Part shown: piece after piece, positions 5,198 through 39,120 of the stretch
Layout: each line of letters opens with the position of its first letter
Position numbering within the stretch: the first letter of the stretch is position 1
Assembly (NCBI RefSeq): GCF_032362555.1
Contig: NC_083506.1
Coordinates: forward strand, 12,199,501 to 12,263,500
From: Amyelois transitella
Lineage: Eukaryota > Arthropoda > Insecta > Lepidoptera > Pyralidae
Reading direction: 5' to 3'
DNA: 64,000 nt
Position numbers and translations under genes: made by a program
Notes under the pieces: generated by a model
What the model was told of the DNA's origin: nothing
Databases searched by the model: none
The model's input: the letters and a program-made list of their open reading frames with translations, nothing else

Positions 5198-8100
5198 ATG
5201 TGGCGGTCGGCGTCGACGGGCGGGCGGCTGGCGGCCGGCCTGGCGTTAGCGCTGTCGCTGGTGCTGGGGGCTGGCCGCCGCGTGCACAAGGAGCCCGAGC
5301 CGGACGCGCGGCACCACACCGACATCTCGCTGTGGATCGACGAGCGGCAAGTGCGGATGTTCAGCGGTAAGAACTAATTGTATAATTTTAGGACCAGTTG
5401 TATGACAGTGAGTAAAGATGGCTACAAGGAGCCCGAGCCCGAAGCCCGGCACCACACCGACATCTCGCTGTGGATCGACGAGCGGCAAGTGCGGATGTTC
5501 AGCGGTAAGAACTAATTGTATAATTTTAGGACCAGTTGTATGACAGTGAGTAAAGATGGCTACAAGGAGCCCGAGCCCGAAGCTCGGCACCACACCGACA
5601 TCTCGCTGTGGATCGACGAGCGGCAAGTGCGGATGTTCAGCGGTAAGAACTAATTGTATAATTTTAGGACAAGTTGTATGACAGTGAGTAAAGATGGCTA
5701 CAAGGAGCCCGAGCCCGAAGCTCGGCACCACACCGACATCTCGCTGTGGATCGACGAGCGGCAAGTGCGGATGTTCAGCGGTAAGGACCAGTCGATCGAA
5801 CAGAAAGAAAGAGAAATAATGTAACTATGAGGAGCGAAGAAATAATGGAAAATGCAGAATCGATTATCCATAATCTATACTAATATTATAATCTATACTA
5901 TACTAATATCATAAAGCTGAAGAGTTTGTTCGTTTGAACGCGCTAATCTCAGGAACTACTGGTTCGAATAGAAAAATTATTTTTGTGTTGAATAGACCAT
6001 TTATCGAGGAAGGCTTTAGGCTATATAACATCACGCTGCAACTATAAGGAGCAAAGAAATAATGGGAGAATTATTCATCATTGAGGGTTTCAATGATGGC
6101 CATAATAACTATTCCACGCGGACGAAGTCGCGGGCACAGCTAGTATTGTATAATTTAAGGACAAGTCGTACGATAGTAAGTGAAGGTGATAACAAGGGCC
6201 CCAATCCCGACGCCAGACTCCACATCTATACATACATACATACATAAATAAAATCACGCCTCTTTCCCGGAGGGGTAGGCAGAGACTACCTCTTTCCACA
6301 TCTATATCTACTCATATACGAGTACTACTCACTATGGATAGTGAAGCGCCAATGCGATGTTCAGCGATAAGACTTTCTGGTATATTTGTTTAGACATTTT
6401 TCTTTATTTGTAAGATCTTTTACCTGATTCTATTGATATCTGCAGTTGTTGTTGTTACTGGTTGACCCAGAACACGGCGATAAGCAGACTTGTCAAGTAT
6501 GGACAAACATCATTATGATTACTCAAAATAAAATCACGTCTACATATATCCCTTGCGGAGTAGACAGAGCAAACAGTCATCAAAAGACTGAAAAGCCACG
6601 TACAGCTTTTTGGCTTAATGATAGTATTACAAAAAAAAAAAAATTAATTTGTAATTGAATAAAAATCTAGCCGAATTCCTTATTATATTAAATCGATGTT
6701 ATTTGATCCTTACTAAATACATTCTTAAAATCAGTTTAACTTATTTGATTCTATATAAATTTCTTTTGCAGGTTTATCGATGAAAATATTCGCAATAATG
6801 GACGGCAATGTGCAATCTTACATCTTAGACCCGAACTTCTCTCTCAAACTGCCCGTAATACCATCTGAAGTGGGTTACGTCAACTTCACGTGGAAGTCCA
6901 AGAAGCGATACGAATACAACTTCGAAACTCTCTCTTCGTCAGATCTCAATATAATGAAGCCGCCAGTGCTTTCTATCAAAACGAGAGGGCGAGTGCCGAA
7001 AACCCCTAAAGGTAGTTAAAAAATATAATTTAATAATGAAAATTTTATCTCGTACCTACTAGAGACACTTCGCTTCGCACGGGTAACATTTGTAGGTAAA
7101 AAACTTCTTTAGAAAACCCTCTTTCCAACGTTTAAACGGGAACGAAATCCGTCGACTTTCCGAGATTAAGTTGCGCATGCATACAGACAGGGAAAATAGG
7201 TCGACTTTATAATATGAAGTGATGATTCTTTAAATAATATTTAAAAGTACATACATAAATCACGCCTCTTTCCCGGAGGGGTAGGCAGAGACCACATCTT
7301 TCCACTTGCCACGAACCCTGCGCACTTCTTTCGCTTCTATATCTAAAAGTCTAGGTACAAAGGGGATTTTCTCTGCCAGTCAATCGAGCGGGCGATATAG
7401 AGGGACTTAGAACTTAATTGATACCTACAAATTTGTATAATTAAGTAGTGTCTCAGACAACGTATCTATTAACACGAAGTTTGTCCCCAGAGTTCAGTAT
7501 ATCGCTGCCTTGCATGGGTAATGTTAGTGGGGTGGCGACATTCGGCATCAGCCTTGAGCTGAAGACCGTTCACAACAATATGTCTCTAAAAGGTACCCCC
7601 TTGAGGTTAAACCTAAAGAAGGAATGCGCACAGAGAGGTGTGTATTTAGAAAGGACAGGTATAGTATCGCCAAACGCATTTTTAACACTTACGCGCCTGT
7701 GTTTTTGTTTGTTTCAATTTAAAAAAAATAAAATTAAGAAAAACCACAGACACATTACATTACCATAAACACAGGTGGAGGTTGATTTATTATCTATAGG
7801 ACATTCATTGTCATAGATATACATATCTATTATTTTTTGTAACACCCCAAAATACCATCAATTGGGAGGAAATAAAAGAAAAATATATTGTTGTAAAAAT
7901 CTTTCCAACATATTTTACCATTCAGAAGTTTACATAACTCGTTTTAAAACTAACAATGAAACTTTCAAAAACACAGACACAACGCTTACTGATACATTTT
8001 TTAATGGAACACTGAACTGTGTATAAAATCATATATTGATGCCCAGCTTATTAATGTGATTCATGCTTTTCTGTTTCATACAAACGAATCCATACAACCG

Positions 8101-11100
8101 ACGAGCCGGGTCGGAACTAAAACATTGCATTTCATTTGTTTCCGTTGAGCTTTGCTACTAATAACCCATATCTGTGAACCGCCATGTCATACCATGTCAT
8201 TTAAAGAATACAAAAATTACTTTATATTGAGAAATACTAAGACAAAATCACAATATTTATCACATCTTATGTACTTAACTTTGTTTTTTGATAAATGAGT
8301 GCGTAATAAAATGCAACACAGCCGAAAATGACACACTTACCTGCGTATTAAATAGAGAACTATCTATACTATCTATACTAATATTATAAAGCTGAAGAGT
8401 TTGTTTGTTTGAACGCGCTAATCTCAGGAACTACTGGTTCGAATTGAAAAATTCGTTTCGTGTTGAATAGACCATTTATCAAGGAAGGCTTTAGGCTATA
8501 TTACATCATGCTGCAACTATGAGGAGCGAAGAAATAATGGAAAATGCAGAATCGATTCTCCATAATCTATACTTACTACTATTACTATTACTTACTATTA
8601 TAAAGCTGAAGAGTTTGTTTGTTTGAACGTGCTAATCTCAGGAACTACCGGTTCGAATTGAAAAATTCTTTTTGCGTTGAATAGACCATTATTGAGGAAG
8701 GCTTTAGGCTATATGACATCACGCTACAAGGAGCAAAGAAATAATGGAAAATGTGAAAAAAAAACAAGGAAAATTATTCATCCGGACAAAGTCGCAGGCA
8801 CAGCTAGTATACCAATATTGATGGTTGTGTTGCTTTAACAATACGTCATTCGGCCTTTATACATGCATTGTAATAAGGTTTATGAGTTAGACATAACATG
8901 GTCGTAAATAAGCTGCTCAATAGACTAGGGAATACCAACTGTAATACTTACTACTATGCTGTAGAAATCTTAAATGCTGGTAACATTAGATAAAGTAACA
9001 ATCCGTTATTTATATTATAAAGTCTGTCTGTCTGTTCCGCTGGACCGATTAGATTAAAATTTGGTATGCTCATAGTTGAAAATCCACGTTCTAACGTAGG
9101 ACGGCAACATTTTTAGAAATTCCCACAGGAACGGTTAATATTGGGAGTTAACGGGCGGAGCCGCGGGCGTTCGCTAGTTTGTAATATCGCACGTTCACAA
9201 AATTAAAGAGTTAAGTTGCACATCAATTTGCAGAGACTTATTGAAAAAACAATCGCGACCGTCATTTACTTTACACTCAGAGAATGACAAATAATGTGCA
9301 CAATGATTGACATACGTCAAATCGCTGAAACTAATAAATTATACAAGAAAAAAAATAGCTCACGCCAAACATACTTGCCAATTTGTACACGAAGCGAACG
9401 AACATTTGAAGCAAAATCGCATTATGAGCAGTAAGAGATCATTATGTGAAATACACGAGTTTTTAACAACCCATTCGACATTGACATGGGGTTCACAGCA
9501 CTTGTATGTTTGTATGTGCCGTGAAGCCTGGCTTTTAATTCAGGCGATTAACAATGCATTGTTTTTTCTGGGCTGCCCGAGCTCTGGCTGGCTGAAGTGC
9601 GGTGCCTCTGCTCACAGTATTTGTGTTTTAGGTTGGTACAACTGCTTGCTTTTTTCCAATCTTCTTAAGACTCCGTTGTAAGCTTAAGTTAAGTATACTA
9701 TAGCTATCCAAAATCAGTATAAAATCGGGTAACGGCCTCTGTGGCGCATCGGTAGTGCGCTTGTCTTGTGACGCCGGAGGTCCCGAGTTCGAATCCCGGC
9801 CAGGGTTTGATGAGAAACGAACTTTCCTTAACTGTCCTGGTATGTTTATCATAAAATAAAGTATCGTTGAGTTAGTATCTAGTAACAAAAGTCTTGAACT
9901 TTCTTCGAGGCTAACACAATCTGTCCCGTATATATTTATCTAAATATTTATAAAATATATGTACTTTCATTTTCAAATAATACATCGCATTCACATGCGT
10001 ATATCACGTAATCACTAACAAAATAAACTTCAGCATGGCTCATTGATGGCATTTTGATTCTATTAGTCAGGTTCCTAGCCCATCGCCTAAAAGAAGAATC
10101 TCAAGTTTATTACACTTTTACTCGATAAGACTTATACAATATATCCTTATATCAATACATTATTTGTTAAATCAAATATAAACACGAGGTAAAAATTTCC
10201 TGAAATAGTTTCCTTAAATCATATCAATATGTAGTTTACTTAAGTAAAACACACTTTACTCCACTTTGGTAATATTAAATCGTAAAAACTTTTAAAAATA
10301 AAATTACACTTGAAGCCTACAGGAAGACGTTAAAATCTTCAATGGCAATCTTAAAGCAATACTGATTTTCAATGACCATTTTGTCATAACATTGCCATTT
10401 TGTATTAATGGCGAGGCTTAATTGTTTTTTAAGTCATGTTAAAATTGCGTTTGTGTTTTTATTTGATCTTTTGCATGGTAAATTTTTTATTGAATTTGAA
10501 ATTAATTAAAGTACAAAAGTCTTTTTGATGAAACATTAAAATAAATCCTAATAAAAAGAAATAACTAAACGTTATCACATGAGTAACAATCGTCTGCCCC
10601 CGTAGCGCGTTACGCACGACGCCATCTTTAAAACTATCGCTGTTTCGCTTTTAACTATGACGTGAAACGGGACGGCGATAGGTTTTTCGCGCGAAAACAA
10701 CGGCTACGCTCCGTGCCACGCAATATTATCAGATTACTTAATTTTACCTTCAAATTTTTCAATCAATTTAACCAACTTTCAAAAACGAATTCCAGGACCC
10801 GATCCCGAGTGCGACAAGAAATGTGCGAACCAGGGTTGGTGCAATCACGAGAAGATTTGCCAATGCCCCGAAGGATATATGGGGCAGCATTGTAAGACGG
10901 CGCTGTGCTACCCGCAATGTATGAACGGCGGGAATTGTACCGCGCCGGGGGTGTGTTCGTGTCCGCCGGGTTACCAGGGCCGGAATTGCGAAGGGGGTAA
11001 GGTATTTTATTGATGTAAGTACACATAATAAGTTCACGTGGAATATCATTGTAAGACTGCGCTGTGCTAGACGTTACAAAATGAACAAGGTAATTGTTTT

Positions 11101-14100
11101 AATTGCGAATGAGGTAACGTGCCTATTTATGTATTTATATATTTTTTTTTAACATTCCCTTAGAATTAGAAGTTAAATATTATTGTCAGTCATCGTTTAA
11201 ATTTCTTACAACATTTTTATGATTAATTGGTTAAAATTAATCATAAAAATGTTGTCTCTCATCCAGATTTCTATTCTAACTTTGGATAGTTGTGAAGTTG
11301 ACGTTATTGAAGAAAATGCTGCATTGCAGTTTGTTACCGTTTCTTCTACACTGACGCTCTGGAAGCGGCAATAAACTTGAATGTTGTGAAACCAAAAGAT
11401 ATGACAATTATTACATAATAACGAATAATTTAGAATTTCAGTCCGCAGTGTACGATCTGTTTAAAAATTCACCCTTTTTTGACAGTTTTCTACATTAGTC
11501 TCACTACCTGGGATATATCTTAGTAGTAGTCTTAGACGAGATATAACAATGAGGAGGTAAAGTACATGAACGTTACACCAACCATTTCTGTAAGAAACGA
11601 AATCTAACTACATTTAAAAACAAACCAACGGAGAAATTGCAAAAAAAATACTATATTGTTCTAACTACGACTCATTAACTATATCTTCTTGGAGATTGCG
11701 ATGGCCACTTTACATCCGGCCTTGATTACTTCAGTCAGAGCTTTGTAAAATGGCGCCTGCTCAGCTCCGTGGTCTATCCCTGTAATAAGATATTTATACA
11801 TACATACATATAATCGGTAGGGTGCCCGTGTGGCTCCCGGCATCAATGCACTTTTTTGCATTGGTGCCAATAGGACCACTCCATGTCTTTCCCATGGATG
11901 TCGTAAAAGGCGACTAAGGGATAGGCTTACAAACTTGGGATTCTTTTTTAGGCGATGGATTAGCAACCTGTCACTATTTAATTCTCAATTCTATCATTAA
12001 GCCAAATAGCTGAGCGTGGTCATTCAGTATTTTCAAGACTGTTGGCTCTGTCTACCCCGCAAGGGATATATGTAGACGTGACCATATGTATGTATGCCCG
12101 GTTAAAACGCGTGTTGCACATAAAAGCACCGGTTGGAGTCCCACCTCGGCCATGTACCAAAAAATATTTTCGAAGTACATTAGTTTCATTACTAACCAAT
12201 GCTTATAATGAGAGAAAACATCGTGAGGAAACCTGCACATTCAGGCAACCATCATCCAATACGGGTTAGGTTCCCATGTAGAGGTCAAACGAGAGTGAAA
12301 ATAACCTGACGCAACCAATCCAGGATCCATGTCCAGGCTTAACCCCGGTCTTCTCTCCAGAGTGGTGAGGATGCAACCTATCCAGGGGAAAAGACTTATT
12401 AACTGTCAAATTTACCTGTATCGTGATGCTCCTGTTCCTCATCACGGAACTTGGTGATCGTCTTCAGTATCTCCTTACCCCGGCCTTCTCTCCAGAGTGG
12501 TGAGGATGCAACCGGGACTATCCAGGGGAAAAGACTTATCAATGTCAAATTTACCTGTATCGTGATGCTCCTGTTCCTCATCACGGAACTTGGTGATCGT
12601 CTTCAGTATCTCCTTATCCCGGCCTTCTCTCCAGAGTGGTGAGGATGCAACCGTGACTATCCAGGGGAAATAGACTTATTAATGTCAAATTTACCTGTAT
12701 CGTGATGCTCCTGTTCCCCATCACATCCCTTGGTGATCGTCTTCAGTATCTCCTTACCCCGGCCTTCTCTCCAGAGTGGTGAGAATGCAACCGTGACTAT
12801 CTAGGGGAAAAGACTTATTAATTGTCAAATTTACCTGTATCGTGATGCTCCTGTTCCTCATCACGGAACTTGGTGATCGTCTTCAGTATCTCCCTGTCCA
12901 CGTTGGGGTCCTCCATCAGGGTCCGCAGCTGGTCGTTGTAGTGGTCCACTATGACTGTCTCCACGGCTACGGTGCAGGCCATCGCCGCTTCTTTGCCTAG
13001 GAGTGCTGTGCCTGGAAATGAAGAACGGTGCTTATTATTTACTAGCTGTGCCCGCGACTTCGTCCGCGTGGTATAGTTATTTTGGGCATCATTGAAGCCT
13101 TCAAGTATGAATAATTTTCCCCGTTTTTTATTTCACATTTTCCATTATTTCTTCGCTCGTTATAGTTGCAGCGTGATTTTATATAGCCTAAAGCCTACCT
13201 CGGTAAGTGGTCTATTCAACACAAAATAATTTTTCAATTTGAACCAGTAGTTCCTGAGATTAGCGCGTTCAAACAAACAAATTTTGCTTTTAATCTGCGC
13301 TGCCTCTTTGACTTTGATTTTCCTTTTTATTTTGGTTGACTGGAAGAAATCCCGATTGGGATAAGTCCGCCATTGTACATATTCTTTTATATTCAATGAC
13401 TGTTCTGATTTTGTTATATTTATTTTTATGTGCAATAAAGAGTTTACAAACAAAAAAACAAACAAATTTTTCAGTTTTATAATTTTAGTATACATTTGAA
13501 TCTTTATGCCCGTAAAATGTACAATAGGTGGACTTAATGCCACAAGGATTCTCTGCCAGTCGAATCTTTGGACCAAATTAAGATGGATGTACGGGTGGTG
13601 CGATAACTGTAAGAGATAATAATAAAAATATGAAAAGGTTACTTAATACACTTACATATAATACATTTACATACATAAGTGTGACTAGAGATATATACTC
13701 CATACATATACATAAGTTGGATGATTGTGTAGAGCTCAAGAAAATTATCAAAAAGAAGATTATGGACTTGCTCCCCGAATGCAAATATTTTACTCAAAAA
13801 AGAATTTTGCCTCATCAAAACACACCCTTAGTTTGATAAGTTCATCTGTTTTTCTAACGAGAATCATAATCTTAGGACACTTCTCAGTAAAACTATATTT
13901 TTAAGGGTTTATGACCCTGATAAAAGCTCACCAGCGCCAAGCGCGAATCCGGCCACATTCCACAACGGCGTAAGCACCGTCGGCCTCACTCTATACTCGT
14001 TGATCAACTGCTCGAACCGCTCTCTATGCTTTATCTCCTGCTCCCACATGTGCTTGATTGTGGGGCCGTCCGCCGTGTTGCCCAGTACCGCCATCTGTCC

Positions 14101-17100
14101 GGCGTAAATGCGATCAGCGCCCAATTCGCCCGCGTGGTCCACTCGGATTATCTTGTCCAGCTGGAAAAATTAAATTTGTAGTTATTTGAAGCGCGTTAGA
14201 ACAGTGTGTGTGTAAACTTTTTTAACTGAATCACAGGATTATCCATACTAATCCACGCTAATAATAATGAGAAAAGATTTTTATGTTTGTAATGAATACA
14301 CTCAAAACTATTGGCACTCCGGGATAAAAAGTACCTAGCCTATATATTATTCTGGGTCTTCAGCTACCTACATACCAAATTTCGTAATCGGTTCAGTAGT
14401 TTTTGCGTGAAAGAGTAACAAACATCCACACTGACATACTCACAAACTTTCGCATTTATAATATTAGTTAGTAGGATATACAGATAATTAGTATTAACCT
14501 TTAAGTAAAGTTTATTTCTCGCGTTAAACCACAAAGATGTGGTAGAAATAGCAGATCTCTCTCTTTCTTTGCGTGTTCCCAGTTGCACCCTCGGACACTT
14601 GTTTTGAGGAGCCCAGGGTTCGCTTAAAAGAAAACGACGTTAATTACAAAAGTAGATATTATAAAAAAAAGCGGTGAAATATTTAATCTATAACAGTTGA
14701 TAAATGGGTAAAAAAATGCTGTCGAATTGAGACCCCCTTTTTTAAGACGGGTAAGAACTTAACTAATCTTTCGAATTCATATCTCAGAAACTCCCAAAAG
14801 GAAAAAAATTTTAACTGAGCCCGTCAGTATGTTATACTTACATGTGGATTCTTGTTCCAACTGGGCATTTTGTGTGCTTGCCTAACTTGACACAACAACG
14901 CTGGTCTTCGAATCATTTTGGGTTATTCTGTAACAAAAATAAGCAAACTTTATAAAAAAAACAACTTGAGAAAACTTTCGTTATAAATATTAATACAATT
15001 TCTCTTCTTTGACAAAACCATCAAAATTGATTTTCAGAAAGGTTACAAGTAGAATCACCAAATAAATTAATTTTGTTTTTGATACAAAATTTCTGTGAAT
15101 GTTTCTTAAATCATTACATAATAGTTGTAAAGCAATAAAAATAATCAAATTACGGACGTCCTGGCAAAGGGTCAAGTCAAGAGTACCCGAAACCGCCGAG
15201 CTTGCATGAAGAGAGTTATGAATGTGGATGAAGCGAAGGAAGTATGCAGTATGCTGTTACATACATATTTTTAACACAATAAAAAAGTGGTATATACCAA
15301 AACCTGAATGTCTTATTTTAGCCTATACCGCCCCACTGATGGGCCAGCCTGGCTGAATGTCTTCTTATTAATTCATTTTTGTTTCAGGTTTATGTTCTCA
15401 GAAGTGTCTGAATGGCGGGAAGTGCATTCAGAAGGACATGTGTCAGTGTACAAAGGGTTACTATGGGTTAAGGTGTGAATTTTGTAAGTATATTAGCGAA
15501 TTATCTGTTAGCTATATCTGTGAAGAGTAAATATTACGTAGGAGCCTGTGTAAAGTGAAATACATTAAATTGTAAAGTCGGGGCCACATAAACCTCCAAC
15601 TGACTGCGACATCTTTACGAACTTGAACAGTCGATCTCTTCTTATTGATTTGTGTGCCGTGTGGTTCCCGACGTAGGAAATTAGCGCCATTTCTGTTCAA
15701 CTCTCTCTAAGAATAAAGGACTTAATGTAAAGGCTAACGGTAGCTACACTTCGGGTTCGCTTTCGCGCAAATGTTTAAAGCGTTGTTGTGATATCTTACT
15801 GTATATAGGTAAAAGGCATCCCGTACCTCTCATTTATAAACGTCAAGCAGAATTGCCACCCACTCAAAAAGTTTTGGATTCCCCACCACCTATCTAGTGA
15901 AGTATATCTATAAGTATAAATTAATTTATTATTTCAGCAAAATGCGTGATCCCCTGCCTGAACGGGGGCCGCTGTAAAGGTATAAACAAATGCCGGTGCC
16001 CGCTTCGCTTCGCGGGGAACCACTGCGAGGTGGCGCTGCGGGGGGGCGAGTGTACTCGCACGTGCCGCCACGGCGTGTGCGCGGGCGGCGTGTGCGAGTG
16101 CGAGCCGGGCTGGCGGGGGAAGAACTGCAGGCGGCCTTACGGTAACACATACAGCTGTGCTGCTCTATACAGGGCGAGCGCTGCGAGTGGCGAGTGTACT
16201 CGCACGTGCCGCCACGGCGTGTGCGCGGGCGGCGTGTGCGAGTGCGAGCCGGGCTGGCGGGGGAAGAACTGCAGGCGGCCTTACGGTAACACATACAGCT
16301 GTGCTGCTCTATACAGGGCGAGCGCTGCGAGTGGCGAGTGTACTCGCACGTGCCGCCACGGCGTGTGCGCGGGCGGCGTGTGCGAGTGCGAGCCGGGCTG
16401 GCGGGGGAAGAACTGCAGGCGGCCTTACGGTAACACATACAGCTGTGCTGCTCTATACAGGGCGAGCGCTGCGAGTGGCGAGTGTACTCGCACGTGCCGC
16501 CACGGCGTGTGCGCGGGCGGCGTGTGCGAGTGCGAGCCGGGCTGGCGGGGGAAGAACTGCAGGCGGCCTTACGGTAACACATACAGCTGTGCTGCTCTAT
16601 ACAGGGCGAGCGCTGCGAGTGGCGAGTGTACTCGCACGTGGCGCCACGGCGTGTGCGCGGGCGGCGTGTGCGAGTGCGAGCCGGGCTGGCGGGGGAAGAA
16701 CTGCAGGCGGCCTTACGGTAACACATACAGCTGTGCTGCTCTATACAGGGCGAGCGCTGCGAGTGGCGAGTGTACTCGCACGTGCCGCCACGGCGTGTGC
16801 GCGGGCGGCGTGTGCGAGTGCGAGCCGGGCTGGCGGGGGAAGAACTGCAGGCGGCCTTACGGTAACACATACAGCTGTGCTGCTCTATACAGGGCGAGCG
16901 CTGCGAGTGGCGAGTGTACTCGCACGTGCCGCCACGGCGTGTGCGCGGGCGGCGTGTGCGAGTGCGAGCCGGGCTGGCGGGGGAAGAACTGCAGGCGGCC
17001 TTACGGTAACACATACAGCTGTGCTGCTCTATACAGGGCGAGCGCTGCGAGTGGCGAGTGTACTCGCACGTGCCGCCACGGCGTGTGCGCGGGCGGCGTG

Positions 17101-18796
17101 TGCGAGTGCGAGCCGGGCTGGCGGGGGAAGAACTGCAGGCGGCCTTACGGTAACACATACAGCTGTGCTGCTCTATACAGGGCGAGCGCTGCGAGTGGCG
17201 AGTGTACTCGCACGTGCCGCCACGGCGTGTGCGCGGGCGGCGTGTGCGAGTGCGAGCCGGGCTGGCGGGGGAAGAACTGCAGGCGGCCTTACGGTAACAC
17301 ATACAGCTGTGCTGCTCTATACAGGGCGAGCGCTGCGAGTGGCGAGTGTACTCGCACGTGCCGCCACGGCGTGTGCGCGGGCGGCGTGTGCGAGTGCGAG
17401 CCGGGCTGGCGGGGGAAGAACTGCAGGCGGCCTTACGGTAACACATACAGCTGTGCTGCTCTATACAGGGCGAGCGCTGCGAGTGGCGAGTGTACTCGCA
17501 CGTGCCGCCACGGCGTGTGCGCGGGCGGCGTGTGCGAGTGCGAGCCGGGCTGGCGGGGGAAGAACTGCAGGCGGCCTTACGGTAACACATACAGCTGTGC
17601 TGCTCTATACAGGGCGAGCGCTGCGAGTGGCGAGTGTACTCGCACGTGCCGCCACGGCGTGTGCGCGGGCGGCGTGTGCGAGTGCGAGCCGGGCTGGCGG
17701 GGGAAGAACTGCAGGCGGCCTTACGGTAACACATACAGCTGTGCTGCTCTATACAGGGCGAGCGCTGCGAGTGGCGAGTGTACTCGCACGTGCCGCCACG
17801 GCGTGTGCGCGGGCGGCGTGTGCGAGTGCGAGCCGGGCTGGCGGGGGAAGAACTGCAGGCGGCCTTACGGTAACACATACAGCTGTGCTGCTCTATACAG
17901 GGCGAGCGCTGCGAGTGGCGAGTGTACTCGCACGTGCCGCCACGGCGTGTGCGCGGGCGGCGTGTGCGAGTGCGAGCCGGGCTGGCGGGGGAAGAACTGC
18001 AGGCGGCCTTACGGTAACACATACAGCTGTGCTGCTCTATACAGGGCGAGCGCTGCGAGTGGCGAGTGTACTCGCACGTGCCGCCACGGCGTGTGCGCGG
18101 GCGGCGTGTGCGAGTGCGAGCCGGGCTGGCGGGGGAAGAACTGCAGGCGGCCTTACGGTAACACATACAGCTGTGCTGCTCTATACAGGGCGAGCGCTGC
18201 GAGTGGCGAGTGTACTCGCACGTGGCGCCACGGCGTGTGCGCGGGCGGCGTGTGCGAGTGCGAGCCGGGCTGGCGGGGGAAGAACTGCAGGCGGCCTTAC
18301 GGTAACACATACAGCTGTGCTGCTCTATACAGGGCGAGCGCTGCGAGTGGCGAGTGTACTCGCACGTGGCGCCACGGCGTGTGCGCGGGCGGCGTGTGCG
18401 AGTGCGAGCCGGGCTGGCGGGGGAAGAACTGCAGGCGGCCTTACGGTAACACATACAGCTGTGCTGCTCTATACAGGGCGAGCGCTGCGAGTGGCGAGTG
18501 TACTCGCACGTGCCGACACATGTGGAGTGTGACGTGTCAAAAGAGAGATATTATAGGCTAGGTTACAATTTAACACAATCCTGCATAAAATAACTTATCA
18601 CTATAATCAGGAACCTGCTGTAGAAGAAGTGGTGAAACTTTGTAATACTTTCATTTAATATTTATCTATCTAAAAGCTGACAGCTGGTTTACGAAACTTT
18701 AAATTTGTATATTTTAAATTTTTTTAAACCCAATTACATATGTTTATTTTGTTTCCAGCTTCATCTGAAGAATCCAGTGAACACAGAAGGTTTTGA
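5198..18796 (+). CDS. shf: Shifted / WIF1-like secreted protein (WIF domain plus EGF repeats)
   Basis: Secreted WIF1-family protein. Drosophila Shifted helps Hedgehog spread with heparan-sulfate proteoglycans; vertebrate WIF1 binds Wnt. Coding exons: 5198-5366, 6772-7011, 7491-7637, 10796-10996, 15388-15483, 15938-16141, 18759-18796. All introns are phase 1 and the sum is 1095 nt (364 residues). Residues 1-27 form a signal peptide with a Leu/Ala-rich core. The WIF domain spans roughly residues 40-183, from DISLWIDERQVRMF to its two cysteines in LPCMGN and KKECAQ. Five EGF modules follow, with CXNGG-type motifs (CMNGGNC, CLNGGKC, CLNGGRC). The last exon gives ASSEESSEHRRF then TGA. Exons 1 and 6 both have tandemly repeated 3' ends including the donor. 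If later exon-6 donors are used, the protein grows by 48 residues per unit up to about 1132. Intron 4 contains COQ7 on the other strand. Start chosen for the signal peptide. The family call is secure; the splice choice at exon 6 is not. Confidence 0.9.
5287..5784 (+). repeat. 138-bp tandem array (four copies) over shifted exon 1 end and donor
   Basis: Copies start at 5287, 5425, 5563 and 5701 (exact 138-bp steps); the fourth is partial. Each unit holds about 80 bp of exon 1 (KEPEP...RQVRMFS) followed by a GTAAG donor and about 58 bp of intron. Only copy 1 is continuous with the start codon; its donor is at 5367. Reading past it meets TAA (AAG AAC TAA), so copies 2-4 are not a coding extension. 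Each later copy is preceded by an acceptor-like ATTTTAG, but entry there in phase 1 gives an early TGA. Copy 1 differs at several bases (GCCGGACGCGCGG against GCCCGAAGCTCGG). Confidence 0.95.
5875..6155 (+). mobile_element. Helitron-like non-autonomous element (Lep1-type)
   Basis: Begins with TCTATACTAATAT...AAGCTGAAGAGTTTG and ends with GACGAAGTCGCGGGCACAGCTAGT. The same body recurs across the window in both orientations. No inverted termini or target duplication are evident, and copies end in CTAGT, which fits Helitron-like insertion. The resemblance to the lepidopteran Lep1 family is from memory. Confidence 0.6.
6226..6302 (-). mobile_element. LINE 3' tail fragment with ATGT microsatellite
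   Basis: Minus-strand copy of a recurrent tail: GTAGTCTCTGCCTACCCC, then GGGAAAGAGGCGTGATTTTA, then an ATGT run (CATA on plus). Longer copies at 23335 and 45000 carry reverse-transcriptase C-terminal coding relics before this tail. Confidence 0.5.
6520..6630 (-). mobile_element. SINE-like repeat fragment
   Basis: Reverse-oriented 3' part of the commonest repeat in the window: the CTGTCTACTCCGCAAGGGAT-like motif and GACTGTT box, followed in full copies by GACGTG and an ATGT tail. Decayed. Confidence 0.5.
7247..7400 (-). mobile_element. LINE 3' tail fragment
   Basis: Minus-strand copy of the GGGAAAGAGGCGTGATTTAT tail, followed by sequence shared with 724-822 and 13500-13600 (TCTCTGCCAGTC). 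It lies in shifted intron 2. Confidence 0.4.
8366..8815 (+). mobile_element. Two adjacent Helitron-like copies in the same orientation
   Basis: The first copy runs about 8366-8565 and lacks its 3' end; the second runs about 8568-8815 and ends in GGCACAGCTAGTAT. Both carry AAGCTGAAGAGTTTGTTTG and the AATAGACCATTTAT...GAAGGCTTTAGGCTATAT core. They lie in shifted intron 3. Confidence 0.6.
9005..9180 (+). mobile_element. Helitron-like relic, second sequence family
   Basis: AAAGTCTGTCTGTCTGTTCC start, GGACCGATTAGATTAAAATT middle and GGAGCCGCGGGCG...CGCTAGTTT end. The layout matches the other CTAGT-ending elements but the body differs. Confidence 0.4.
9727..9930 (+). mobile_element. tRNA-derived SINE
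   Basis: An internal Pol III A box (TGGCGCATCGGTAGTGCGC) and B box (GAGTTCGAATCCCGGCC) are correctly spaced. They are followed by a non-tRNA body (GATGAGAAACGAACTTTCC...GTTTATC) and a CTAACACAATCTGT tail. Related copies at 24316 and 36455. It is not a tRNA gene because no full cloverleaf can be drawn. Confidence 0.7.
11208..11255. repeat. Perfect 21-bp inverted repeat (hairpin)
   Basis: Arms 11208-11228 and 11235-11255 are exact reverse complements, separated by the 6-nt loop GGTTAA. AT-rich, within shifted intron 4 and downstream of COQ7. Shorter than a typical microRNA precursor. Confidence 0.85.
11679..14916 (-). CDS. COQ7: COQ7, 5-demethoxyubiquinone hydroxylase (mitochondrial)
   Basis: Hydroxylates 5-demethoxyubiquinone in coenzyme Q synthesis at the inner mitochondrial membrane (CLK-1/CAT5 family). 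Exons in transcript order: 14842-14916, 13932-14160, 12835-13011, 11679-11779. They total 582 nt (193 residues); phases 0, 1 and 1 join cleanly. The first 25 residues are basic (MIRRPALLCQVR), consistent with a mitochondrial presequence. Di-iron ligand motifs are present in order: DHAGELGADR, an EIKH ExxH, a Glu in AVET, and DEEQEHHD with GIDHGAE. Other landmarks are RVRPTVLTPLWNVAGFALGAG and the C-terminal GCKVAIAISKKI. The length fits the family. The gene lies entirely in intron 4 of the opposite-strand shifted gene. The end of exon 3 with its donor is repeated downstream in a four-copy array. The identification is very strong. Confidence 0.95.
11822..12098 (+). mobile_element. SINE-like repeat, near full length
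   Basis: Head GCCCGTGTGGCTCCCGGC; middle CCATGGATGTCGTAAAAGGC; then GGCGATGG, CTGTCACTATTT, and tail TACCCCGCAAGGGATATATG...CGTGACCATATGTATGTATG. It lies in the last intron of COQ7, antisense to it. Confidence 0.75.
12340..12893 (-). repeat. 139-140-bp tandem array (four copies) over COQ7 exon 3 end and donor
   Basis: The exon/intron junction (TTTACCTGTATCG on plus) recurs at 12411, 12550, 12690 and 12830. The copy at 12835 belongs to the real exon 3; the other three are downstream in transcript order. Each unit holds about 59 bp of exon end (EILKTITKFRDEEQEHHDT), the GTAAAT donor and about 80 bp of intron including CTCCAGAGTGGTGAG. Copies differ by small changes. The architecture matches the two arrays in shifted. 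Confidence 0.92.
13040..13285 (-). mobile_element. Helitron-like element (Lep1-type)
   Basis: Reverse copy starting ACTAGCTGTGCCCGCGACTT and running through TTGAACCAGTAGTTCCTGAG to AACAAACAAA. It lies in COQ7 intron 2. Confidence 0.6.
13290..13605 (+). mobile_element. LINE 3' UTR relics
   Basis: Two abutting pieces. The first has a CCGCCATTGTACATATTC...TGTGCAATAAAGAGTTTAC tail typical of a non-LTR 3' end. The second (13500-13605) matches 724-822: AAAATGTACAATAGGTGGAC, TTCTCTGCCAGTCGAA and GGATGTACGG. There is no intact ORF. Confidence 0.4.
14235..14482 (+). mobile_element. Helitron-like relic, third sequence family
   Basis: Contains ACCTACATACCAAATTTCGT, TCGGTTCAGTAGTTTTTGCG, AACAAACATCCACACTGACA and a TTTATAATATTAGTTAGTAG end. 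Shared with 30170-30372 and 37894-38105. It lies in COQ7 intron 1. Confidence 0.45.
15145..15255 (+). mobile_element. LINE reverse-transcriptase C-terminal relic
   Basis: ACGGACGTCCTGGCAAAGGG followed by codons for a CMKRVMNVDEAKEVCS-like stretch, homologous to 23386-23540 and to minus-strand copies at 45000 and 49340. Truncated at both ends. It lies just upstream of shifted exon 5. Confidence 0.5.
16045..18510 (+). repeat. 144-bp tandem array (17 full copies) over shifted exon 6 EGF module and donor
   Basis: GGCGAGTGTACTCGC recurs at 16045 and every 144 bp to 18349; a partial 18th unit at 18493 diverges after CGTGCCG. Each unit encodes one six-cysteine EGF module (ECTRTCRHGVCAGGVCEC then PGWRGKNC), a donor (TACG|GTAACA at 16142 + 144k) and about 47 bp that continue in frame as GNTYSCAALYRASAAS. 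With 48 codons and no stop, the array reads through on the plus frame to 18561; a second plus frame and a minus frame are also open. Copies 5, 16 and 17 have CGTGGCGC instead of CGTGCCGC, replacing the second EGF cysteine by tryptophan. Near-identity points to recent expansion or homogenisation; assembly copy number should be treated as approximate. Confidence 0.95.
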
Positions 18797-25700: not shown

Positions 25701-28700
25701 ATATAAAAAAAATAACGAAACAGTCATTAGATTTTAAACAAAATGTACAATGGTGGACTTTAATTACTTTCAGTAAAACAAAAGAAAATGAAAATTCCAA
25801 TCCTCCATCCAATAGTAAAATAAAAATGTGTTTTTTTTTTGTTTGTAATCAATAAACTCAGTACAAAACTGATTTTAATGTCAGTCATCTTATATTATAG
25901 AATTTAGGTTAGCTTTTATATCCTGAAGTTTATCATAAAATTCTAATAAATATTATAATACATTGCCATGATTAATAATGTTTTGATGTTGCAGTTCGTG
26001 GTAAGCCGGGCTGGGGCCGGGAGTCCACGCGTCCGCCGTGGTGGCCCAAGGACCTGCCCTGGGCCAACGTCAGAATGGACGCCCGCTCAGAGGACGAGAA
26101 ACAGAAGGTATGTGATTTACATACATATACATATGGTCTATATCCCTTGCGGGGTAGACAGAGCCAACAGTCTTGAAAAGACTGAATGGCCACGATCAGC
26201 TATTTGGCTTAATGATAGGATTGAGATTCAAATAGTGACAGGTTGATAGCCCATCGCCTAAAGAAGAATCCAAAGTTTGTAAGCCTATCCCTTAGTCGCC
26301 TTTTACGACATCCATGGGAAAGAGATGGAGTGGTCCTTTTCTTTTTTGTATTGGTGCTGGGAACCACTCGGCACATGTGTTATTGTTGTTGTTGTATTAT
26401 ATGTGATTTATTTTTATTTTATTTATTTGGTCTACCATTGTTTGCTACATTGAAACATGATATACAATCTAATACACATGTTAATTTAATTGCTAAACGC
26501 GCAAACCATTGAAGGTAAACACCACATACTCAAATTCTTGTTGAAAACATTAATAATATTGAGTGAATTTCTAACAATTTTGAATATTATTTTTTTTTCA
26601 ATTAGCAATAAAAATATAAAATTTTGAAAATATTGTTAAACAGTTTATGTTATTTATGCTTCATTGTTATAATTACGAATTTGTTAAGTAGGCGGACTTA
26701 TTGATTGGTGATTTGAATCTCATGCCCGGACAGATGTCGTGGACGCACGCGTTACGTCAGATCGTGATCAACTGCTACAAGTACCACGGCCGGGAGGATC
26801 TGCTGCCCGCCTTCACCGAGGAGGACGATAAACCGCAGACACAACCCGTGAGTTACTTTTTATATACATATATGTATAGTTATGTCTGTCTGTCTGTATG
26901 TATGACTAACACATGAAATTTACATTTTGCTTAATATTGTTTTAAGAAAGGTTCTGTTAACTTACTAAATGATATAATCAGAATTCCTTTCTCAGTACTT
27001 CTTTAATAAATTACAATAATACATCTAATTATACTTCTTGTAGCTCGAGTTCCCTTTTTTTTCAATGCACCGAAAAACGCGGCTAAATCAAACGTCAAAA
27101 CGCCAAATCAGTATTGCCAACACATGACAATAAAATACTATTTTTTTTTAATGTTACCAGTTCACTTTGGGACTGAGGCAAAACTCAATGTGTGTTGTTA
27201 CATTGAGTTTTGGCAAGTGAATGAATTTGTCTATTTCTTAATTGTTAATAAGTAATAAGGTATAATGTGATTTTCGTTTTTTTTACACAGTAATACTATA
27301 GAAATTTAACTTAACATATTTATAATATTCCTTATACGTAATTTTTCATGTATGTTATTGACGAAATTTGTTAAGACTTTAGAAATTTAACTTAACATAT
27401 TTAGAATATTTTTTATACGTAATTTTTCATGTATGTTATTAACGAAATTTGTCAAGGAAAATTTTCCTTGAAATCGCTTTTAACTAACTACTGAATGTTA
27501 ACAAAAGTCTTTTTTTTTTTTGCTATAATTAACAATAAGTATCTTTACGATAAGTATCTAACTAATAAGTATCTTTAAGATAAGTATGTTTTGTACAAAA
27601 AGAATCTTGCCAACATGAACATAGAGTGTACTAACCCAACCCCGGCCATTCCGCACGCTGCCCGGACCGGTACCGTACCGCTACAGATATCGGCGTGCAT
27701 GCCCGGCGCCGGCGCGGGCCGCGCGCCCGCCGCGCTCGCCGCGCAGCAGGTCTGCATCGACCAGGTCACGCTGCAGGACGTCGATGTACGCACCCAGGCT
27801 ACTGCTGTCTTACAGCGGCCCGCTGTTTAACAGCCCACACTATTGACTTACAGCGGGCCGCTATTTAACAGCACCCCGTCTACTGCTTACTTACAGCGGG
27901 CCACTGTTTACCACCCCATACTACTGACTTACAGCGGGCTGCTGTTTACCAGCCCACACTGCTGAATTACAACGGGCCGCTATTTAACAGCCCACACTAC
28001 TGACTTACAGCGGGCCGCTATTTAACAGCCCACACTGCTGACTTACAGCGGGCCGCTCTTCACCACCCCACACTATTGACTTACAGCGGGCCGCTCTTTA
28101 CCAGCCCACACTGCTGACTTACAGCGGACGGCTCTTTACCAGCCCACACTATTGACTTACAGCGGGCCGCACTTTACCAACCCACACTATTGACTTACAG
28201 CGGACCGCTATTTACCAGCCCACACTGCTGAATTACAACGGGCCGCTATTTAACAGGCCACACTACTGACTTACAGCGGGCTGCTATTTACCAGCCCACA
28301 TTACTGTCTACCAGCGGGCCGCACTTTACCAGCCCACACTACTGACTTACAGCGGGCCGCACTTTACCAGCCCTCTTGTAGTGCCACCCGCGAACTACCG
28401 CTGTTTCGTTAAAAGGGACGGCGATAGTTTTTCGCGCGATGAAAAAAAGGCGCGTGCCGTGCTAGATCGGGTGAGTCAGGTGTTTACACGGAACGACTCA
28501 TGTTTGACCTTAATTCTAAAACCCATAGTGGATTATGGGTTAACTTTATAGTTGCCTGACGTATGTATAAGAGGATTTTTTGAGGGATTAATGCCTGTTT
28601 TACTCGATATAACGCGTCGAACAAGTAAACAGGAATTTGTATGGAATTGCTTTAGTACCATCGCGTACCATTACAGGAAGCTACTGCCGTCTGACCTCCG

Positions 28701-29708
28701 CAACATTTCCAGGAGAACCCAAATCATACTGGAATATGATTACACATCCAATTTTCTGACTTACGAATTATTAAACCATTATTATTATTCTTCCGCGGAC
28801 TTTACTTTCAAATTAACAACTGAAAATGAAACTAAGAAATTCAAGAAAGCGCTATGATGAAAGAAACTTTAATAATTATTTTTATTTTTATATGTAGGTA
28901 CTTTTAAAAAGACATAAACATTATCGTGGACTTTACTTTCAAATCAGCAACTGAAAATGAAACTAAGAAATTCGAGAATGCGCTATGATGAAAGAAACTT
29001 TAATAATTATTTTTATTTTTATACGTACCTAGGTATTTTTAAAAAGACATAAACATTAATCTACATTAATACAGATGTCGCAGTACGCCCCGGCAGTTCT
29101 CCAGACCATCACCAATCCGGACGGCACAGTGTCCCTCATACAAGTGGACCCCAACAACCCCATCATAACGCTGCCAGACGGCACTACGGCCCAAGTGGTG
29201 AGTCAGTTTGTGGCTTTTGATCATTATCACTACATAGTATAAAACAAAGTCGCTATTTTAGTCTGTTTGTCTGTATGCTTAAATCTTTAAAATTACGCAA
29301 CGGATTTTGATGCGGTTTTTTGTAACAGGTGGAGTGATTCAAGAGGAAGGTTTTTATGTATAATAACATTTATAATTTTGCACCCGTGCGAAGCCGGGGC
29401 GAGTCGCTAGTACATATATAAAATCACGCCTCTTTTCCTGGAGAGGTAGGCAGAGACTACCAGCCAAATAGCTGACTATTTGGCTAAATGATATGAGATT
29501 CAAATAGTGACAGGTTGCTAGCCCATCGCCTAAAGGAAGAATTCCAAGTTTATAAGCCTATCCCTTAGTCGCCTTTTACGACATCCATGGGAAAGACATG
29601 GAGTGATCCTATTCTTTTTTGTATTGGTGCCGGGAACCACACGGCACCAATACAAAAAAGACATACATACATACATATGTGTATATATATACACATATAC
29701 ATATATAT

Positions 29709-38396: not shown

Positions 38397-38439
38397 CTGC
38401 TGACGCTCGTGGCGGCGTCGCCGGAGCCCGAGCCGGACC

Positions 38440-39120
38440 TGCTGCTCGAGCGAGCGTAGCCCCCACTCACACACACTAGCTAATGCACCGGTGATCTAGA
38501 CTGGGTCTCTCTACAGACAGTTATTGAACAAGACGCCTTCCTATTTTTGGACTTGCAGCCAGTTTTGTCAGATACAGATGTGTAGATTTTTTTTTTTGGT
38601 GGTAGTGATATGGTGCTCGAGCCAACGTAGACTCCACACTAGGTAATGTACCGGTGATCTAGACTGGGTCTCTCTACAGACAGTTATCTAACAAGACGCC
38701 TTCCTATTTTTGGACTTACAGCCAGTTTTGTCAAATAGTACGGATGTGTAGATTTTTTTTTTTGGTGGTGGCGATATGGTGCTCGAGCCAACGTAGACTC
38801 CACACTAGGTAATGAACCGGTGGTCCGGACTGGAATATTTTTTATTGAGATAGTTCAGTTTTCTCAAATGTTACGGTGAACTAAGATTTTTTGGTGGTGG
38901 CGTCCTGCTGATTCGAGCGAGCGTAGCCTCCACACTAGCTTATACCGGTGATATAGAGCGGGTTTCTTTACAGACAGTGATTGAACCAGACGCCATTCTT
39001 TTTATTTTCTCATACGCTGCTGACTCGTGGCGGTTAATGCCCGACCAGAAATGCTGCTCGAGCGTATTAGCTAAATGTATGGTGGTTTACACTGGGTGTC
39101 TTTGGAGTCAGTAATCGATA
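38440..39120 (+). repeat. Degenerate tandem repeats in ewg 3' UTR
   Basis: CTCGAGCGAGCGTAG or CTCGAGCCAACGTAG starts at about 38455, 38616, 38782, 38913 (TTCGAG) and 39057, giving unit lengths of 131-166 bp. Shared parts: CACACTAG, ACCGGTGATCTAGACTGGGT, ACAGACAGTTAT, GACGCCTTCCTATTTTTGGA and GGTGGTGGCG. It begins about 45 bp after the stop codon. Confidence 0.85.

Follow-up and report, generated by a model that had tools for sequence, protein, structure and literature searches.

A 17-copy splice-donor array at exon 6 of the shifted/WIF1-like gene of Amyelois transitella is probably an exon-edge minisatellite with silent extra donors

The shifted/WIF1-like (shf) gene of Amyelois transitella carries, at the 3' end of its sixth coding exon, a long tandem array of a 144-bp unit that spans the exon tail, the splice donor and the start of the following intron. 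The array is real, and we consider it probable that it is a minisatellite of which the first donor is normally used and the extra copies are intron; on the gene model the main product is most probably the ordinary 364-residue Shifted/WIF1 protein with five EGF modules. The analysis centred on a 64,000-nt window of contig NC_083506.1 (positions 12,199,501 to 12,263,500), and tandem arrays with a period of at least 60 bp were sought using TRF in the window and in 100 kb of the same contig on each side, a sample of 264 kb. Coordinates are counted from the first letter of the window; negative numbers and numbers above 64,000 lie in the flanks.

The shf gene was modelled with seven coding exons on the forward strand. 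Exon 1 (5198..5366; frame, splice sites and Pfam WIF) encodes the signal peptide and the start of the WIF domain, which continues in exons 2 (6772..7011) and 3 (7491..7637). EGF modules I and II lie in exon 4 (10796..10996), module III in exon 5 (15388..15483), and modules IV and V in the 204-nt exon 6 (15938..16141), which stops in phase 1 at the first donor and connects to the last coding exon (18759..18796; ASSEESSEHRRF and the stop codon); for these last two exons the model is accompanied by the WIF1 alignment. The identification as a shifted/WIF1-like gene, made in the original prediction, is borne out by a full-length match of the product's N-terminus to the Pfam WIF domain (E 4.3e-38, profile 1-131 of 131) and by the alignment of the first-donor product, joined in silico, with 2ygq, which we take to be human WIF1. 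This alignment (E 3.2e-67, with a query that differed at one residue, A285 for S) covers query residues 43-362, runs through five EGF modules into the short C-terminal tail and has no insertion at the array junction. A complete Shifted/WIF1 protein, from the WIF domain to the C-terminus, therefore needs nothing from the array, and the suggestion that use of the first donor may be normal is one with which we agree. In the matched passages of PMC7565927, aphid and fly genes encode EGF I-II within a single exon, have conserved splice sites on the borders of III and keep IV-V together in another exon, and this protostome plan recurs in shf exons 4, 5 and 6. The moth gene thus shares with the WIF1/Shifted family, as described in those passages, the WIF domain, the five EGF modules and the EGF I-II and IV-V exons, and differs in having a donor array after EGF V.

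TRF reported a single array at 16033-18519 (period 144, 17.3 copies, 99% matches), and alignment of the units delimited it at 16033..18515 on the forward strand with donors at 16142+144k; the copy number, period and donor positions originally proposed were thereby confirmed. The donor reads ACG|GTAACA in 17/17 copies, with zero differences among the units between 3 nt upstream and 5 nt downstream of the GT. The first unit departs from the others at the left edge alone, where the border at 16033 is imperfect (10 mismatches within 16033-16044), and on the right the final partial copy stops at 18515. The left edge apart, the sole variation among the 17 units is a TGC>TGG change in units 5, 16 and 17 (3/17), which replaces the second EGF cysteine by tryptophan, so that a disulfide cysteine is lost. 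The copies lie head to tail at a fixed period and include both exon tail and GT donor, which fits membership in donor-spanning minisatellites. The unit is 68% G+C and contains an inverted repeat, GCGAGT..ACTCGC (GCGAGTGTACTCGC), found at 16046-16059 and 18494-18507 near both array borders and recurring in each unit through the last partial copy; it is a possible hairpin seed for slippage. When the 327-Mb genome was searched with the unit, at least 18 matches were obtained (such counts are lower bounds), and a mobile element was ruled out as its identity because all 18 fall in the shf array. An intron-exon cassette was also considered, in which a cryptic 113-nt exon would run from an internal ..CTATACAG to the next donor. 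The GT..AG stretch inside each unit is only 31 nt, and the 175-nt intron of the cassette is possible by length; the cassette was dismissed since its phase is by arithmetic incompatible with the last exon.

The original prediction held that the unit is free of stops, that the array reads through from 15938 and that every donor would join in frame, so that donor choice could yield a series of longer proteins. The frame entering from the acceptor at 15938 is indeed open to 18558, with a stop codon at 18559-18561, and joining each of donors 1-17, all in phase 1, to 18759 in silico gave products of 364, 412 and so on to 1132 residues, in 48-residue steps and with the terminal stop only. The further step from an open frame to longer proteins was not supported. 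The unit is open in 3/6 frames, and 2000 mononucleotide shuffles of it had 0-6 open frames in 146, 465, 677, 525, 158, 27 and 2 cases respectively, about two on average (1-3 in 1667/2000). Within the 47-nt intron-derived part the coding frame stayed open in 51% of shuffles and, as a third of all periods are multiples of 3, an in-frame array is expected by chance about once in six. The open frame of the array therefore carries little weight as a sign of coding.

Under an alternative reading, splicing uses several of the in-frame donors, and the resulting proteins carry between 5 and about 21 EGF-like modules, growing by 48 residues at a time, which could alter heparan sulfate or Hedgehog binding; we regard this as unlikely. 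It can draw on the 17/17 stop-free joins and on Pfam EGF models, which matched three stretches of a test peptide made of EGF IV, EGF V, one intact and one tryptophan-bearing repeat, with the best match in the tryptophan-bearing unit. Against it, the sole variant of the array is the loss of a disulfide cysteine in units 5, 16 and 17. A coding EGF repeat would have six disulfide cysteines and none unpaired, whereas the linker GNTYSCAALYRASAAS, intron-derived and with an odd cysteine as originally described, puts a seventh cysteine in every unit. The donor lacks a G at +5 and looks weak on inspection, which makes leakage to later donors plausible, all such joins being in frame, and the intron that remains after the last (17th) donor is so short, at 313 nt, that pairing across it could favour that donor. 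Against such use stand the first-donor product, orthologous end to end on its own, the stops met by the sibling arrays described below, and the WIF1 literature, which in the matches listed (12/43 places) speaks of five EGF domains or of losses, with no gains.

Two sibling arrays with the same anatomy, absent from the original prediction, lie within 11 kb of the exon 6 array. The first (5286..5788, forward strand) repeats the tail of shf exon 1, its donor and the intron start in a 138-bp unit (about 80 nt of exon tail, the donor and about 58 nt of intron) with four donors, the last copy being partial; past the donor, an in-frame TAA follows after three codons. The second (12342..12899, reverse strand) belongs to COQ7, a gene nested in a shf intron, and repeats exon tail, donor and intron in a 140-bp unit, again with four donors. 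In both, an in-frame TAA comes within six codons of the donor, the reading frames ending in ..RMFSGKN (shf exon 1) and ..HHDTGKFDN (COQ7). The first-donor join of COQ7 aligned with 7ssp, presumably human COQ7, at E 5.8e-70 and gap-free at the array junction. Five clustered non-synonymous changes in COQ7 copy 2 (12695-12753, reverse strand), altering KFRDEE to KGCDGE, are as expected of an untranslated copy. Older copies are also present in shf introns on the forward strand: a diverged and interrupted copy of the exon 1 unit at 6145..6387 (6145-6224 at 76%, 6356-6387 at 78%), and a decayed copy of the exon 4 tail and donor in the next intron at 11034..11115 (23 nt at 96%, E 3.5e-6, the donor part by alignment). 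Since the shf exon 1 and COQ7 arrays have the same anatomy together with in-frame stops, the exon 6 array is one case of a local class, apparently a noncoding one, and not a special feature of EGF modules.

Further members were found in the flanks. The exon-tail array of Klp10A (kinesin-13; 92472-96240) has 24 donors spaced 150-166 bp apart, with (ACAT)n in its intron part; in 7/23 cases the spacing is not divisible by 3, and the 90 nt upstream of the donor are identical in 22/24 copies. Its first donor joined to 96305 gave a product that aligned to 3j2u, which we assume to be fly Klp10A, at E 1.1e-63 with no insertion at the junction; a few later donors (e.g. 2 and 3) are in frame, and their residues would enter a conserved motor segment. 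This array of about 4 kb is open in all three forward frames, even though the frame shifts between units, and is thus a second G+C-rich donor array that resembles a giant protein. The same gene has an acceptor-side array (87530-87803; 86-90 bp x 3, ccccag|GAAGCACTGATGAA), whose exon matched Klp10A 6b0i at E 1.1e-21. There the last copy is joined to the true exon and, by reading, the first acceptor would run into a stop, so that duplications which need the last site persist too.

An Ig-domain exon of a gene that we presume to be Neuroglian (Pfam I-set, E 2.8e-9) carries an exon-tail array with donors at -17526 to -16273, in units of 343-352 bp, again with in-frame stops past the donor. The stops in the shf exon 1, COQ7 and I-set arrays argue that the normal protein comes from the first donor only. 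The four I-set exon copies show six differences over their final 142 nt, and 6/6 are synonymous where a share of 28% is expected; a purely noncoding fate does not predict this and it tells against such a fate, exchange with the selected exon being one possible reason. Just upstream of these 142 nt, copies 3 and 4 have a non-synonymous GGC>GAC change. The idea that the exon part of the copies is conserved and the intron part free was rejected, as I-set units 2 and 3, whose introns match except for a single gap, differ in their exon parts.

In the 264-kb sample, 7/9 distinct TRF arrays lie on an exon edge, six at a donor (one of them unverified) and one at an acceptor. The donor-edge arrays are those of shf exon 1, COQ7, shf exon 6, the I-set exon, Klp10A and an ORF ending ..PTPADLFQ at -90323, a putative exon with no family match. 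The remaining two are an AT-rich array at 27291, away from known exons, and one at 38472 on the end of an apparent ewg/NRF1 coding segment; the NRF1 domain was confirmed in three exons of the ewg gene, not for this segment. With edge counts that were assumed, not taken from annotation, and with the unverified edge included, the binomial probability of 7/9 is 5.8e-4 for 400 edges per 264 kb and 0.008 for 600. For the 200 kb of flanks beyond the window, where 4/4 arrays lie on exon edges (one unverified), the values on the same assumptions are 0.0023 and 0.012. The excess of six donors over one acceptor (0.0625, one-sided) is not significant alone, and a strict class confined to donors is weakened by the Klp10A acceptor array.

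Several observations concern the ewg region. Units of 163-171 bp at 38438-39003 repeat the end of an apparent ewg coding segment with the sequence that follows; the copies have ACTAGGTAATG and the first unit ACTAGCTAATG. A 38-bp x 15 array (27801-28373) begins just past an apparent ewg/NRF1 exon. Self-BLAST also revealed an intronic head-to-tail pair at 28794-29058 that is absent from the TRF list.

In the samples from contig C5 (50 kb) and contig C12 (20 kb) no exon-edge array was present, and the two array regions of such size both appeared TE-like by eye; these stretches also looked poorer in coding ORFs. TRF found no array in a 3.3-kb stretch of kinesin exons on contig C30, but for 1/4 exons examined there a decayed 55-bp copy lies in the intron that follows (85%, E 1.4e-14). 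This copy (L036, 885-939 against 1458-1512) repeats part of a kinesin exon of a minus-strand gene on another chromosome. When exons were compared with their flanks by BLAST, 9/36 had a downstream and 3/36 an upstream match, a rate not clearly above that of random non-exon segments (22/150 and 13/150), whose background is taken to be TEs and simple repeats. Copies overlapping the exon itself numbered eight downstream and one upstream among the 36, a list of our own choosing that includes the known array exons, approximate ewg bounds (one of the eight, ewg12, is a putative exon) and a guessed COQ7_a. A genome-wide count of tandem exons through family matches fails, PF00225 giving one match for the 24-copy Klp10A array. 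A gene with a SAM/Pointed-like domain was seen twice (-84694 to -84372 and -54026 to -53701); a second copy of its last coding segment follows the stop codon, at a distance of 179-182 bp (80-82%).

From these patterns we infer the use of the donors, the mechanism of duplication and the filter of tolerance. The array would have grown from a tandem duplication that took in the exon 6 3' end, the adjoining 5' splice site and some 35-47 bp of intron. The first of the 17 identical donors would define exon 6 and join it to 18759, and the other 16 copies would be removed with the 2.6-kb intron. If equal tandem donors are resolved toward the first, the coding sequence would stay unchanged and duplications spanning a donor could persist, and their copies would then expand by unequal exchange, exchange sequence and decay as intron. 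Where two consensus donors compete, the first is predominantly used, and tandem acceptors have no order preference, according to Mikl et al. (2019; PMC6783452), a rule measured in human cells and not in moths. On this rule, the mRNA would stay as it was after a duplication across a donor, but would often change after one at an acceptor or within an exon. The first-donor joins made in silico restore conserved proteins in three genes (shf against 2ygq, COQ7 against 7ssp, Klp10A against 3j2u), and the model accounts for this orthology, for the stops in the sibling arrays, for the downstream bias and for the intronic fossils. That arrays apparently gather at donor edges, with decayed copies in the introns, suggests that tandem duplications which would otherwise disrupt genes are sheltered by first-donor splicing.

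That arrays begin at exons in the first place is not accounted for by the model alone. In this region exons have the look of G+C-rich islands and the shf unit contains an inverted repeat, which makes slippage-prone sequence a candidate cause; a bolder candidate is a mechanism coupled to transcription or splicing. In its widest form, the proposal would be that in this moth exon 3' ends and donors are preferentially copied into the downstream intron by a mechanism coupled to transcription, splicing or exon ends, leaving genome-wide donor minisatellites that first-donor splicing keeps mostly silent, with shf exon 6 a rare exception at which leaky choice of donor would add entire EGF-like modules in frame; we consider this possible but doubtful.

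Over-expansion by the assembler of a one- or two-copy duplication is very unlikely. The copies are nearly identical, as such an error would produce, but a discrete variant is placed in units 5, 16 and 17 and the neighbouring arrays have independent unit lengths and variants. The 2.5-kb array would, moreover, be small beside the long reads on which chromosome-scale assemblies usually rest, so that its length and the discrete variants make an assembly error less likely. A role of the identical donors at the RNA level is likewise very unlikely, for instance as a decoy that binds U1 or as a delay element, by which intron removal would be tuned or the long intron shielded from early polyadenylation: 17 intact donors, unchanged from -3 nt to +5 nt around the GT, and the recurrence of donor arrays in other genes speak for such a role, but youth or homogenisation explains the near-identity, and elsewhere the unit is just as constant save at one site, so that the donors are not singled out.

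With 17 to 24 identical natural donors in a row, every one preceded by the same exon tail, such arrays lend themselves to testing how the spliceosome chooses among equal 5' splice sites. They also carry a warning for annotation, as donor arrays can mimic giant repeat proteins in genomic ORFs. Since the functional exon itself belongs to the array, exchange could carry the cysteine-to-tryptophan change into a working EGF module. Exon-edge minisatellites were not recognised as a class among the matches listed in the open-access literature, and absence there is not absence from print.

Three known systems are close to these arrays. Intron gain by tandem genomic duplication (the AGGT model) makes a new intron inside an exon. 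The moth arrays likewise bring a second splice site into a gene, but they duplicate an existing exon edge, and the copies are apparently absorbed into an existing intron. In the kringle IV array of LPA, whole exon pairs are repeated in phase and translated; that VNTR and the shf array both multiply an extracellular disulfide module many times, almost unchanged, within one gene, whereas in shf part of one exon and the intron start are repeated, with an odd cysteine count. The tandem alternative 5' splice sites of PMC6783452 share with the moth arrays equal donors in a row on one pre-mRNA, for which the rule predicts the first, and that study mentions earlier conflicting evidence on the choice among equal donors. 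Two donors were tested there in a designed library of 147-162-nt segments, whereas the moth arrays offer 17 natural donors (24 in Klp10A), about 144-166 bp apart and each with a copy of the exon tail.
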